21,958 nt of DNA from a virus. This document shows, piece by piece, positions 1-9,114 of the stretch. A program made the position numbers and the translations under genes. How positions within the stretch are numbered: the stretch's first letter is position 1; every line of letters starts with the position of its first letter. The stretch lies in the IMG/VR virus record IMGVR_UViG_3300042991_000757, positions 1-21,958 of that record; one strand, written 5' to 3'. The notes beneath the pieces are model-generated. The model saw only the letters and a program-made list of their open reading frames with translations. It made no database searches and was not told the DNA's origin.

Positions 1-641
1 GTGGTGAATTGGATAGTTTCATTAGCAATATTGCTTTGATGCCAATGACTATGAGTGAGCATTGGATTCAAAACGTGCAAGCATTGGGAATGCTTACAGA
101 TGAGGAATGGAATAGTTTTGATGATGAAGGGAATTATAAAACTAATTTAGAACCTATTTCAAATAAAAGAATAATTGAAATAGAACAAAAGGTAAGAAGA
201 AGTCAAGGTAAAGGCTATCAACCGACAGACCAAAGGATGATACAAATGTATAGTTGGGGAGAAGCAATAATGCAATTCAATAGATTTTTACCTACAATGT
301 TTTGGGATAGATTTGCAAAAGAAGATGTAGATATTTATGGTAGAGAACATATTGGTACATTAAGAGCAGTGGGAAATGGTTTAAGAGAAGCAGTAGGTAA
401 AATGAGTCCAAAGGAATTTATTAATTATAGAAATTCATTAAGTCCGGAACTACAAAAGCAATTTGATAGTGGGTTAAAAGGAATAGGATTGAGTACAGTT
501 GCTTTAATGCTTGGCTATGGATTAAATAGTGAAATATCAAAAGAGCTATATTGGGATGCCAATTATTATGCTAATGCAGAGGGACTTTTATATAAAGGAG
601 TGCCGTCAGTATTACGCACCGGAATAGAAACATTTAATTAA
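1..641 (+). CDS. C-terminal part of a large (probably virion/polyvalent) protein, 5'-truncated
   Basis: The only convincing plus-strand gene. The reading frame is open from base 3 (codons GGT GAA TTG) and no ATG precedes it, so the gene enters from the left of the window and ends at TAA 639-641. About 212 residues are visible. They are rich in Trp, Tyr and Met, with a helical segment (GLSTVALMLGYGL, roughly residues 158-170 of the visible part) that could be a membrane or amphipathic helix. No catalytic motif is visible. Composition and position, converging on a minus-strand replication block, resemble the C-terminal end of the giant virion-cargo proteins of crAss-like phages; that assignment is inference. 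It ends 30 bp before the tRNA-like gene on the other strand. Confident as coding, weak on function. Confidence 0.7.
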   Translation, partial: GELDSFISNIALMPMTMSEHWIQNVQALGMLTDEEWNSFDDEGNYKTNLEPISNKRIIEIEQKVRRSQGKGYQPTDQRMIQMYSWGEAIMQFNRFLPTMFWDRFAKEDVDIYGREHIGTLRAVGNGLREAVGKMSPKEFINYRNSLSPELQKQFDSGLKGIGLSTVALMLGYGLNSEISKELYWDANYYANAEGLLYKGVPSVLRTGIETFN

Positions 642-670
642 AAAAAAACTTCATAATTTTAATTATTTTG

Positions 671-813
671 TAGTCAGGGCAGGACTCGAACCTGTAGATG
701 CGTTACTATTATTCACAACATTCATTTGGTTATTATTAGGCTTTTTATGAGTTTCGCTTCTCGCGTTAAACTATTTTACCCAAATAGCGTCTTCCAATTT
801 TCGCCACCTGACT
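671..813 (-). tRNA. tRNA-Leu-like gene with surplus sequence between D and T arms
   Basis: On the minus strand, 813-807 (AGTCAGG) pairs perfectly with 678-672 (CCTGACT) as a 7-bp acceptor stem with discriminator A at 671; CCA is not encoded. Next comes TG plus a D arm typical of class II (Leu) tRNAs: GCG stem, AAATTGG loop, GACGC. The T arm has a TTCGAGT loop at 690-684 and four of five stem pairs. The total is 143 nt against about 85 for tRNA-Leu, so about 55-60 nt are extra. The anticodon arm is ambiguous: CTATT/AATAG gives a 7-nt loop TGGGTAA without U33, while TATTTGG (786-780) pairs with CCAAATG (729-723) around a large insert. The insert holds its own hairpin (AGTTT...AAACT around a CGC/GCG stem). 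GTA/TAC just before the T arm could be a variable arm. Anticodon not assignable. Confidence 0.6.
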
Positions 814-828
814 TTGTTTTAATTATTT

Positions 829-1020
829 TTATAATAAATCTTCATCCACGTACACTAAAACCTCTGTGTTTTGCTTGACCGCCTCTAAACAAATCTCATC
901 AGTTTGATTCTTAACATATCTTAGAGCATTACCATTTCGGTTAACTGCTTTTAAAGATTCAGTTTCAGTAAAATACGTGTAACTACTTTCTTTTAGTTTG
1001 ATTAATCCTTGAATTGTCAT
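829..1020 (-). CDS. Short DUF4116-like repeat protein (tandem paralogue)
   Basis: 63 residues from the ATG at 1020. Residues 1-26 are nearly identical to the start of the next gene upstream, so this ATG is preferred over an in-frame ATG at 1047 that lies inside that neighbour. It has one complete and one partial copy of a 22-residue unit (core TDEICLEAVKQ followed by ALRYVKNQ). Units of this pattern match the DUF4116 type of short helical repeats, seen in large DNA viruses and some bacterial proteins; a role in binding partner proteins is usually supposed but not known. It is the last protein gene of the minus-strand run before the tRNA-like gene. It looks like a shortened duplicate of its neighbour. 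Confidence 0.75.
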   Translation of the reverse strand: MTIQGLIKLKESSYTYFTETESLKAVNRNGNALRYVKNQTDEICLEAVKQNTEVLVYVDEDLL

Positions 1021-1486
1021 AATATTAGTGTTTAAGTAATTTTTCATTTACATATTTTAAAGCTTCACTATTTCGTTTAACCGCTTTTATACAAATAGCT
1101 TCTGTTTGATTCTTTACATATTTTAAAGCTAATCCATCTTGGTTAACTGCAGCTAAGCAAATCTCGTCTGTTTGATTATTAACATATTGTAAAGCATTAC
1201 CATCTCCTTTAACTGCAGCTAAGCAAATAGCTTTCGTTTGATTCTTAACATATTGTAATGCTAATCCATTTTGTTTGACAGTTTTTAAACAAATATCTTC
1301 TGTTTGATTATTTACAAGTGATAAAGCAAAGCTAATTTGTTTAACTGCTTCTAAGCAAATTTCATCAGTTTGATTCTTTACGAATCGTAAAGCTAAACCA
1401 CTTTCTCTAACTGCTTTTAAAGATTCAGTTTCAGTAAAATACGTGTAACTACTTTCTTTTAGTTTAATTAAGTCTTGAATTGTCAT
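942..1486. repeat. 79-bp direct repeat at 942-1020 and 1408-1486
   Basis: The two copies lie 466 bp apart and differ at three positions. Each covers the 5' end of one repeat-protein gene (first 26 codons), with both copies ending exactly at the ATG. This shows a tandem gene duplication, with the rest of the downstream copy mostly lost. Confidence 0.9.
1025..1486 (-). CDS. DUF4116-like helical repeat protein
   Basis: 153 residues. After a 26-residue N-terminal segment (MTIQDLIKLKESSYTYF...) come a first degenerate unit and then five 22-residue units, each reading approximately T(D/E)(E/A)IC(L/I)xAVxxxxxAL(x)YVxNQ. Cys at position 5, Ala-Val at 8-9 and the NQ end are almost invariant. The 66-bp DNA period is visible directly. 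The pattern fits DUF4116-type repeats, which fold as stacked helices and probably present a protein-binding surface; the partner is unknown. The stop is 4 nt before the start of the short paralogue, so the two are likely co-translated. Near identity between units suggests recent expansion or ongoing recombination. Confidence 0.8.
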   Translation of the reverse strand: MTIQDLIKLKESSYTYFTETESLKAVRESGLALRFVKNQTDEICLEAVKQISFALSLVNNQTEDICLKTVKQNGLALQYVKNQTKAICLAAVKGDGNALQYVNNQTDEICLAAVNQDGLALKYVKNQTEAICIKAVKRNSEALKYVNEKLLKH

Positions 1487-1525
1487 TGTTTGTGTTTAAA
1501 AGTTAAAAAAATTATAGATTCCTTA

Positions 1526-2194
1526 TTAAATTAATTTCATTAAATAAAAATTTGATTTATTAATATATTCATTACGAATAAATAAAAAATCATTAATGGT
1601 TCTAATTTTAAATTTTATATTTCTAACACTACTACCACCGTCAGTAAATAAAAATCTATTCGGTGTAAATGTATTTGGGAATAAAGCAATAGCATTGCCG
1701 GATCCGGAAACAGGTATAGGCACTAACTTCATTGTATATATCCCATGTTTTTCAAAGATAATACTTTGATTTAATGGAAATGTAGCATAAGAATTAAAAG
1801 AACCTGAAAATTTTGCTGCAATAGCTGGTGGTTTAACATCTACAAAAGTAAAAGTATCACCATCTTTTTCTTGTGCTAAAAAGAAAGCATTATAAACTAA
1901 TGGTTTATCTTTATCTATTAATTCATAAAAAATATCTTTTGCTTTTTTAGCCCAATAAATTAAAAAATCAGGCTTGTAAGTATGTTTACCTACAAGTTTT
2001 AAATTAGAATAAATAGGTTTACCGGATTTACGAAATTCTTTAATACGTGGTATATATACTTCATTATTAAAGTCAAAGGGAGTTATATCTTTTTCTTTTT
2101 TATAAGAAAGAATAAAACCTTTATCTTTAAGTTCTTGAAGATACCATTCAAAATAATCTTCAAAAGTGGGTTTATTAGGATTTGCTTTTGACAT
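1526..2194 (-). CDS. PD-(D/E)XK family nuclease
   Basis: 222 residues. Residues 70-121 hold a plausible PD-(D/E)XK core: HTYKPDFLIYW (Pro75-Asp76) followed about 40 residues later by the strand TFVDVKPP (Asp119 and Lys121). The N-terminal 60 residues contain acidic helical sequence (Glu12, Glu16, Glu21) that could supply the first metal-binding acid. Related small nucleases are conserved in the replication blocks of crAss-like phages and related Bacteroidota phages, where they may resolve or trim branched DNA or degrade host DNA; the substrate is not known here. The long spacing between PD and DVK and the C-terminal 90 residues, which I do not recognise, limit certainty. Start at ATG 2194, preceded by an A/T leader. 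Confidence 0.7.
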   Translation of the reverse strand: MSKANPNKPTFEDYFEWYLQELKDKGFILSYKKEKDITPFDFNNEVYIPRIKEFRKSGKPIYSNLKLVGKHTYKPDFLIYWAKKAKDIFYELIDKDKPLVYNAFFLAQEKDGDTFTFVDVKPPAIAAKFSGSFNSYATFPLNQSIIFEKHGIYTMKLVPIPVSGSGNAIALFPNTFTPNRFLFTDGGSSVRNIKFKIRTINDFLFIRNEYINKSNFYLMKLI

Positions 2195-6786: not shown

Positions 6787-9114
6787 TTATTTTAAAATAT
6801 ACACATTAAATTTTGCTCTTGTTAAAGCGGTATAAAGAGATTGTAATCTCCTTTTAGGACTAATAGGAATATGTTCTGACAACATATCATCAATGTCTAT
6901 ATAAACATTATTATAAGTACTTCCTTGTGATTTATAAGATGTAATAGCAAATGATGATGATATATTAGCAAATAAAGATTTAAATTTCCAATATTTATTA
7001 AATTTTTTATCTGAATAATACATATCACAAATAGTTTCATAAGTTATTTGACCTTTATCAGATGGAATTGGAAAACGTTTTTTATTACCATCTTCATCAG
7101 TAATATATATCATATAACTATCAACATCACTTATTTTATTATTGAGTATTTTTTCAATAATAAATTCACTACTATTTTGAATTACTACTCCCTCTGATTC
7201 ATTAAAATAAGTTTCATTAAAAAATATAACCTCTCCTTCAATAAATTTGTTATTAGGATAATTATATATTAAATTCCTTAAAGTATTGTTGTGAGAGTCA
7301 ATAATTGCGTTTCTATAACCAATTATTTTATTATTCAATAAATCATTTTTATGATGCTTGATATAATGAAATGGAAATGTGAATTTATCAAGCAAATGAA
7401 TTCCTTTATCATTAATAACATTTTCAGTTTTTAACAAATTCATTATTTTTTGAATATTACAATTATCTTGTATTTCTTTTGCTATTTCATTAGCAACAAA
7501 TACAATAGGATTATCAGCCTCTTGTCTTACAACTTCAGTAAGTTCTTGTGAAAGTTCTTCCGGTAAATTCCAATAAAAAACAGGACTATCTTTATTATTA
7601 TCTTTTATTGAAAGTATTGGTGGTAATTGGTTTTTATCTCCAACAAATATAATTTTAGTAAATATATTTGTTTCATTAAATACAATGTCTAACATTTCTT
7701 GTGAAAACATAGAACATTCGTCAATTACAAAACAAAGATTATCATATTTACAAATTGCATCTTTAATTTTATAAAGATTAGGCTCAAATGTTTTAGCTCC
7801 ATTTGATAATATCTTTTCTTTGTATCCGTAAGCAGATGCAAAAGTTGTAACATTAGGAATAGAACGAGCTAACACATTTTTTGCTTTATGCGAAACTGTA
7901 ATTCCAATAATATCATTTGACTTTGGAAATTCTTTTTTAAAATCATTAAAAGCGGTTTTAATCATCGTGGTATTATGTGTAACAGTATAATCATTAGTTA
8001 CATATAAATGCCTATCATCATCAACTAATAAACATTGACCATCCATATAACCAATAAAATTAGCAGAAATAATTTTCTTTTTAAATTTATAATAAAATTT
8101 ATGTTTTTCAAAAACATCTTTTCTATTGCTTATTTTAAAAGGATTAAATTTTGTTCTCAACGAAATATTATATTCAATCCCTTTGTCTTTTCTGTAAAAT
8201 TCTCTTAAAACAGCATAAGAACCTAAACTTCTTGCTAAATTTAAAAAATCATTTGCAAGAACATTAGAAATAGTAGAATAAGATAATTTCATTTTTGTTT
8301 TAAAATCAATAATAGAACCATCTGAATCCATCAAACCCTTTAATAATTCAATTCTATTTTCTATCGAATTATAAAGATAAGAATGTGGAATAAATTTTTC
8401 TTTTGATTTAACCCCCAATAATAAATAATGATCAAGATATTTTCTTAATCCAACATTAAAAGTTATTACACCTGTATTTGTATTTTTTTTTTTTAATTCA
8501 GATAATTTAACAATAACATCAAAAGGAACTATATTTTTAATTAAATCAAAAGTTTCTTGTATTCTATCAGAATTCATTGTTAATGTATATCCTCTATTAA
8601 TGGGAAAATATCCATTTCCTATTAATAAACCCATAAGATAGGGATGTAAAAATAAATCACTCGTTTTAAATTCAATTGGCTCTACTAAATCAACTGAATA
8701 ATAATAATTGGATTTAATATTTTTTGTTTTATTAATATTAGGTAATATTTCTTTTAATGAAAAAACAGAATATTTATTTTTTTCTATTTGTTTTTTTGTT
8801 TGAACTTCCCATAAATGATCTATACAACATCTTGTGGTTGATCCATCAGAAAAAGTAAGTTTATATATTTCTAAATTTTCTCCTTTAAAAGTTTCTAAAA
8901 CTTTTATTTGTTTTCCATACTTATTAATAACAAAACTTCCTTTTTTAATATTCCTCATTTCAGTATATCCATAAGGAGTTAAAATTGGTTCGTCATAAGG
9001 CTGTAATTTTCCGTGTCCGGCAGCGCCGGTAATTCTCATTACTCGGTGCTGGCTGGACAAGAAATTAATGATTTTATTTTTACCAACTTCTTGTGATGGT
9101 GTTAAAACTATCAT
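6787..9114 (-). CDS. SF1 DNA helicase (Dda/RecD-like) interrupted by an intein
   Basis: 775 residues; without the intein (37-381) the helicase is 430 residues, the size of T4 Dda. It unwinds DNA using ATP, probably 5' to 3' as for Dda/RecD2. Motifs: Q-like start LTPSQ; Walker A GAAGHGK|TT, split by the intein exactly between Lys36 and Thr382; Walker B FVIDECSM (462-469); motif III GDKNQLPP (492-499); motif V/SH3-side SYKSQGSTY (726-734); motif VI ALTRAK (763-768). All are intact. Until the intein is spliced out the P-loop cannot form, so helicase activity should depend on splicing. The stop is 9 nt before the clamp start; the start abuts the coiled-coil gene (stop at 9115). Confidence 0.93.
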   Translation of the reverse strand: MIVLTPSQEVGKNKIINFLSSQHRVMRITGAAGHGKLQPYDEPILTPYGYTEMRNIKKGSFVINKYGKQIKVLETFKGENLEIYKLTFSDGSTTRCCIDHLWEVQTKKQIEKNKYSVFSLKEILPNINKTKNIKSNYYYSVDLVEPIEFKTSDLFLHPYLMGLLIGNGYFPINRGYTLTMNSDRIQETFDLIKNIVPFDVIVKLSELKKKNTNTGVITFNVGLRKYLDHYLLLGVKSKEKFIPHSYLYNSIENRIELLKGLMDSDGSIIDFKTKMKLSYSTISNVLANDFLNLARSLGSYAVLREFYRKDKGIEYNISLRTKFNPFKISNRKDVFEKHKFYYKFKKKIISANFIGYMDGQCLLVDDDRHLYVTNDYTVTHNTTMIKTAFNDFKKEFPKSNDIIGITVSHKAKNVLARSIPNVTTFASAYGYKEKILSNGAKTFEPNLYKIKDAICKYDNLCFVIDECSMFSQEMLDIVFNETNIFTKIIFVGDKNQLPPILSIKDNNKDSPVFYWNLPEELSQELTEVVRQEADNPIVFVANEIAKEIQDNCNIQKIMNLLKTENVINDKGIHLLDKFTFPFHYIKHHKNDLLNNKIIGYRNAIIDSHNNTLRNLIYNYPNNKFIEGEVIFFNETYFNESEGVVIQNSSEFIIEKILNNKISDVDSYMIYITDEDGNKKRFPIPSDKGQITYETICDMYYSDKKFNKYWKFKSLFANISSSFAITSYKSQGSTYNNVYIDIDDMLSEHIPISPKRRLQSLYTALTRAKFNVYILK
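7972..9006 (-). mobile_element. Class 3-type intein with LAGLIDADG endonuclease domain in helicase Walker A loop
   Basis: 345 residues in frame (helicase residues 37-381). The C-terminal junction is canonical: VTHN|T. The N-terminal residue is Leu, not Cys/Ser/Ala. The sequence instead carries the class 3 triad: Trp in block B (IDHLWEV, two residues after the block-B His), Cys at block F position 4 (GQCLLVDDD, residue 361) and Thr just before the His-Asn in block G. In class 3 inteins the block-F Cys makes the first branched intermediate, so Leu1 is not a defect. Two LAGLIDADG helices follow: YLMGLLIGNGYF (159-170) and LLKGLMDSDGSI (257-268). The first has Asn where the catalytic Asp is expected. 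Splicing residues look intact, endonuclease activity doubtful. Confidence 0.88.

Follow-up and report, generated by a model that had tools for sequence, protein, structure and literature searches.

The window, a virus record of 21,958 bases (24.4% G+C) with phage replication genes, carries on its minus strand at 813-671 a 143-nt tRNA-Leu-shaped RNA gene that has no anticodon arm. Our best explanation, held at about even confidence from sequence comparison, is that this gene encodes a non-decoding phage small RNA that would serve as a natural tRNA scaffold carrying a cargo insert. The comparison shows that selection keeps the tertiary core of a tRNA-Leu together with its acceptor stem and its D and T arms, while a lineage-specific insert replaces the anticodon and variable arms; in other members the insert is kept as a unit between phages whose DNA is otherwise unrelated.

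The window element is one member of what is apparently a large, undescribed family of non-decoding tRNA-shaped RNAs in many phages, and the claim to newness is made for the family as a whole. We found no description of the family in the literature searched; preprints and many journals lay outside the search, so an earlier description may exist.

Structure and position of the window element

The element has the layout AGTCAGG-TGGCGAAAATTGGAAGACGC-(91 nt)-ACAGGTTCGAGTCCTGC-CCTGACT-A. The stem of its Leu-type D arm (TGGCGAAAATTGGAAGACGC) is fully paired (3/3; G10-C25, C11-G24, G12-C23), and the T arm pairs at four of five positions, with A49-C65 as a mismatch. U8, A14, A15, G18G19, U48 (A15-U48) and A73 are all present. 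A preliminary description had proposed the seven-pair acceptor stem, the Leu-type D arm, the T arm, the 143-nt end-to-end distance and a hairpin within the insert, all of which are confirmed here, on the minus strand. The features are as follows.

671-813, minus strand: whole tRNA-Leu-like RNA, predicted mature unit of 143 nt, CCA not encoded
807-813, minus strand: acceptor stem 5' strand AGTCAGG, 7/7 pairs with 672-678
787-806, minus strand: U8 and Leu-type D arm (A14, A15, G18G19), leucine identity elements in PMC9976931
696-786, minus strand: 91-nt hypervariable insert between the D and T arms where anticodon and variable arms would lie, with U48 as its last base
780-786, minus strand: possible long-range helix, 5' side TATTTGG, read from the sequence
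750-772, minus strand: internal hairpin AGTTT-aa-CGC-GAGAA-GCG-AAACT, pair probabilities 0.66-0.97 in a constrained fold
723-729, minus strand: possible long-range helix, 3' side CCAAATG, read from the sequence
679-695, minus strand: T arm ACAGG-TTCGAGT-CCTGC (family consensus ACAGGTTCGAATCCTGT)
672-678, minus strand: acceptor stem 3' strand CCTGACT
671, minus strand: discriminator A73 (next bases CAA)
640-668, minus strand: A/T-rich inverted repeat followed by a T run, a possible terminator read from the sequence

The DNA unit shared by related phages has nearly the same ends as the predicted unit of the window element. The possible terminator at 640-668 was not detected by a G+C-based scan. 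The element fills the gap between convergent ORFs at 9-641 (plus strand) and 829-1047 (minus strand, DUF4116 repeats). Its placement at a junction of converging genes, pointed out in the preliminary description, is true of the window element and not general, as family members commonly lie within tRNA arrays. Two DUF4116-repeat ORFs (829-1486, minus strand) end the leftward gene block and adjoin the RNA gene. Elsewhere in the window, the Dda-like helicase ORF at 6787-9114 (minus strand) matches LAGLIDADG_3/Hom_end at residues 242-315 and terminase-like PHROGs over residues 8-388; an intein or embedded homing endonuclease is possible.

The anticodon arm is absent

The window element has the 7-bp acceptor stem, Leu D arm, T arm and A73 of a canonical tRNA-Leu and lacks the decoding part: no anticodon stem of 5 bp with a 7-nt loop and U33 was found, and no Leu anticodon. 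ARAGORN called no tRNA at the element under default settings, and neither ARAGORN nor Rfam gave a tmRNA match. With the -i option ARAGORN reported a 'tRNA-Val(aac) with 47-nt intron' whose anticodon stem contains two wobbles and a mismatch; low-threshold ARAGORN runs yielded over 100 spurious matches. The covariance-model check suggested earlier for an ordinary tRNA or tmRNA came back empty, as Rfam has no match to the element at E<=1, and no RF00005 match was found in its own record either. Some relatives do match RF00005, at 36-45 bits.

The alternative anticodon stems noted in the preliminary description exist, namely TATTTGG/CCAAATG (7 bp, by reading) and TTGGGT/GCCTAA (6 bp, constrained fold). 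Across the family, the share of inserts that admit a canonical anticodon arm (at least 4 pairs, 7-nt loop) is 20%, no higher than the 20% obtained after shuffling. A helix of at least 6 bp at the anticodon position, with any loop, occurs in 39/177 inserts versus 30±4.8 after shuffling, and one of at least 7 bp in 16/177 versus 9.7, so that the long-range helix 780-786/723-729 is weakly backed. Minimal members of 70-72 nt, with inserts of 17-24 nt, contain little beyond a small hairpin in this region.

An intron-bearing or a decaying tRNA is an unlikely reading of the window element. The first of these, a tRNA from which an intron of degenerate group I or bulge-helix-bulge type is removed to leave a normal tRNA, draws on the ARAGORN -i call and on the few relatives whose insert is closed by a good anticodon-stem-like helix (L298; L293/L294). 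The shuffled-rate frequency of canonical arms, the minimal members, which hold no splicable sequence, and the lack of any intron family match in Rfam make it scarcely credible. Exons joining to a legal anticodon arm were not found by ARAGORN, the shuffle test or inspection of the minimal members. Among the three options offered earlier, the degenerate intron is not supported, given the shuffled-rate arms and the 70-72-nt members, which leave nothing to splice. The enlarged arm fits some members only, with helices at the anticodon position barely above the shuffled level, and the tRNA-shaped regulatory or decoy RNA comes closest.

A family of tRNA-Leu-shaped RNAs in viral contigs

Pattern scans were run on nearly only viral contigs; their counts are lower bounds from a metagenome-biased sample and do not amount to a census. 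Scan 1 used the 5' half only (acceptor and D arm) and returned at least 120 contigs. Among the matches listed, 124 of 136 elements had a matching 3' half within 500 nt although this half was outside the pattern, and because these 5'-half relatives carry it, the frame of the window element is more than chance. The T arm consensus of the listed scan 1 matches was ACAGGTTCGAATCCTGT, A73 was present in 87% of groups, and the D-to-T stretch ranged from 17 to 140 nt (121 elements in 99 groups, with insert groups made by shared 6-mers). Scan 2 used a pattern without any acceptor, and 118 matches, among those listed, were analysed. A perfect 7-bp acceptor stem, again outside the pattern, was present in 67 of the 79 listed matches not of the AGTCAGG class, compared with 1% when 5' and 3' acceptor strands were exchanged between elements. 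The listed non-AGTCAGG matches have 69 distinct acceptor 5' sequences.

Together the two scans gave at least 228 elements without a canonical anticodon arm, in at least 183 insert groups, with the same tRNA-Leu core throughout and inserts of 17 to about 150 nt among the matches listed. In L036, L040, L108, L053 and L133 there is one extra base, which would bulge, in the acceptor or T-stem 3' strand. Relatives were also sought through a neighbouring protein (L002-L007), and the element was present in none of these loci.

Decay of a tRNA-Leu gene would account for the A49-C65 mismatch in the T stem of the window element and for its lack of a canonical anticodon arm. Decay would be expected to hit the acceptor stem and T arm too, and both stay paired family-wide; the inserts, moreover, are conserved. 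We give a pseudogene very little credence.

The retained core matches the needs of a leucine acceptor

Because the search patterns fix parts of the frame, core conservation inside them is no evidence; A14 and A15 are partly fixed in this way, and U48 and A73 are not. Among the groups listed, A15-U48 is found in 168/183 and A73 in 150/183, and A14, A15-U48 and A73 occur together in 138/183. Outside the AGTCAGG class, A73 is present in only 47/71 listed groups, so leucylation may not be general. The E. coli leucyl-tRNA synthetase (LeuRS) needs A73, A15-U48, G18G19, A20a and D/T-loop contacts, and it still charges tRNA-Leu variants from which the anticodon and variable arms are missing (PMC9976931). 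The window element was compared with these requirements and has the bases for A73, A14, A15-U48, G18G19 and the D/T-loop contacts. Taken with the counts of A15-U48 and A73, the published requirements indicate that the kept core matches what a leucine acceptor needs and lacks what decoding needs. RNAs of the window type are probably leucine-chargeable, judging from these bases.

Inserts as probable conserved cargo

In pairs of elements from different phages, insert identity is 80-98%, while the 150-nt flanks are at about 0.50, the background of unrelated DNA. Five pairs of loci (L042/L129, L052/L065, L026/L070, L069/L136 and L134/L214), compared over 1.6-14 kb, have a single block of 86-117 nt in common and are otherwise without detectable DNA similarity; the block lies within the RNA or differs from it in extent by a few bases. 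With this unit of ~86-117 nt as the sole DNA common to some pairs of phage loci, the insert looks like conserved cargo. In L134/L214 and L143/L270, 95-97% of the insert is kept and the acceptor stem is exchanged on both strands. Compensatory changes within inserts are few: GATAAC/GTTATC to GGTAAC/GTTACC, CCAT/ATGG to CCAC/GTGG and, in Klebsiella phages, CCTGG/CCAGG to CTCGG/CCGAG. The isolated shared blocks could reflect selection or recent horizontal transfer, both of which fit the alignments.

The mean folding z of the inserts is -0.64±0.11, so they are modestly structured. The window insert is not unusually stable (MFE z only -0.28), and a search with a 17-mer from its hairpin found no relative; the case for cargo in the window element therefore comes from the family. 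Four 17-mer matches to the window insert lacked a tRNA frame and were rejected as apparently chance. We found no common motif in the inserts, a k-mer search giving mostly leftover T-arm sequence, and no excess of antisense complementarity to the own locus (10.08 versus 10.00 nt).

The strongest rival explanation, which we regard as unlikely, makes the core the effector: a leucine-accepting or EF-Tu/LeuRS-binding RNA would tie up LeuRS, leucine or EF-Tu while the phage infects, and the insert would merely abolish decoding. The core does match the minimal LeuRS substrate (PMC9976931), U48 and A73 are retained, and the ~71-nt members L084, L125, L102 and L120 have almost no insert. Such a role would leave unexplained why inserts are conserved between phages with unrelated flanks, why they show compensatory changes and why one genome holds several copies with different inserts.

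Alternatively, the conserved ends could permit insert exchange in a selfish or recombining DNA cassette that has no function as RNA. The isolated shared blocks in unrelated loci and the near-constant frame of the AGTCAGG class are compatible with a cassette. The acceptor, D-stem and T-stem sequences vary with compensation, however, and inserts persist where both strands of the acceptor stem have been replaced, which makes this alternative very improbable.

Distribution in phages and cellular genomes

Cultured relatives were found in 63 INPHARED records, from T4-like phages of Klebsiella, Enterobacter, Edwardsiella and others, where the elements are annotated as nothing, hypothetical protein, tRNA-Ser, tRNA-Thr or tRNA-OTHER. 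A single phage record often has two to four copies whose inserts differ. In 84,980 bacterial and archaeal genomes the AGTCAGG class was present in only 7 contigs, each a single contig of a metagenome-assembled genome and probably binned phage DNA. The general class was found in 4/395 genomes of one phylum; one of these four elements lies beside a Sak4-like phage gene, and another adjoins a gene for an NYN/LOTUS protein. Two tRNA-Leu-like genes of cellular genomes, in L293 (about 1490-1600, minus strand; an NYN/LOTUS-domain protein gene is next door) and L294 (150-259, plus strand), have a long strong hairpin as anticodon arm.

Restriction to phages and hypervariability would also fit a decoy or substitute against host defences that attack tRNAs, in which an arms race would drive the variation of the inserts; evasion of such defences by phage tRNAs is known (PMC10264068, PMC11555353). 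Known effectors, however, often cleave the anticodon or variable loop, neither of which these RNAs have, and no neighbour gene of a defence or counter-defence kind recurs. We consider a decoy decidedly unlikely. No constant neighbour gene or protein partner was found; a terminase-like family (identified by eye) is near 13/182 loci.

As an isotype control, a Ser-type pattern returned only 12 contigs, of which about 7 lack a canonical anticodon arm, compared with at least 120 for Leu. SerRS, too, does not read the anticodon. Long inserts that lack a canonical anticodon arm thus also occur in Ser-type frames (L296, L298, L299, L300, L304 and L307), less often than in those of the Leu type. Long tRNA-like genes of other isotypes are rare in the loci at hand, which were picked by Leu patterns. 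A separate set of class II tRNA-like genes (L183, L185, L206, L207, L208, L210, L240, L255 and L267) combines a perfect anticodon arm (U33; anticodon GTC or GTT) with discriminator G and a long variable arm; it forms an odd family that, by its anticodons, would read Asp/Asn codons.

Comparison with known RNAs

The nearest known kind is the set of RNAs from the tRNA clusters of T4-like phages, T4 RNAC and RNAD (species 1 and 2 RNA) included. These are stable RNAs of ~120-140 nt encoded beside phage tRNA genes, as here; they are expressed late from the T4 tRNA cluster, and their function is not known (PMC9697503, PMC3014915). T4 RNAC shares with the family only the layout of a 3' T arm and acceptor-like strand; a Leu-type D arm is missing from it, and only 5/7 positions pair between its two ends by inspection. 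We count as family members the elements of Klebsiella, Enterobacter and Edwardsiella T4-like phages, which have a Leu-type D arm, a T arm, a length of ~124-129 nt and a conserved insert with a compensatory hairpin change, and whose acceptors and insert differ from those of the window element. A short GAGTAAGG motif ending GAGUAAGG is common, by eye, to T4 rnaD (L017, 554-672, minus strand) and a Klebsiella element (L018, 1495-1622).

Among RNAs outside the T4-like phages, tmRNA has tRNA-like ends and no anticodon arm, as in the family. It lacks a Leu-type D arm, and the 17-24-nt inserts of the minimal members leave little room for a tag reading frame. The tRNA-like structures of plant viruses resemble the family as viral mimics of tRNA, open to aminoacylation; they are 3' ends of RNA genomes, whereas the family consists of free small RNAs of DNA phages. 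For bacterial Y RNA (YrlA), no TROVE match was found among the window proteins scanned.

Engineered RNAs come close in layout. Minimal E. coli tRNA-Leu constructs (Larkin et al. 2002, as described in PMC9976931) consist of acceptor, D and T arms without anticodon or variable arms and are still charged; unlike the family, they carry no insert. The tRNA scaffold of PMC3753655 has the same layout as the family, with acceptor, D and T arms kept and the RNA of interest placed at the anticodon stem-loop; unlike the family, it is man-made and based on tRNA-Lys.

A proposed natural tRNA scaffold

In the scaffold explanation that we favor, the host would mature the RNA like a tRNA, by RNase P, 3' processing and CCA addition, and the tRNA fold would protect it. 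LeuRS may charge it, since this enzyme ignores the anticodon and variable arms. The insert would do the work, as a structured RNA that affects, in trans, some target in the host or a competitor. Somewhat short of even confidence, we propose more broadly that DNA phages widely encode leucine-chargeable, non-decoding tRNA-shaped RNAs with exchangeable, fast-diversifying cargo, a natural counterpart of the laboratory tRNA scaffold.

If this is true, hundreds of phage loci that are unannotated or filed as odd tRNAs would belong to a single class of non-coding RNA that tRNA finders overlook because they look for an anticodon arm. Phages would then exploit a synthetase that ignores the anticodon, and the RNAs would offer natural modules for stable RNA expression. 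The role of phage tRNA-like RNAs, open since T4 RNAC and RNAD, would become testable in cultured phages.
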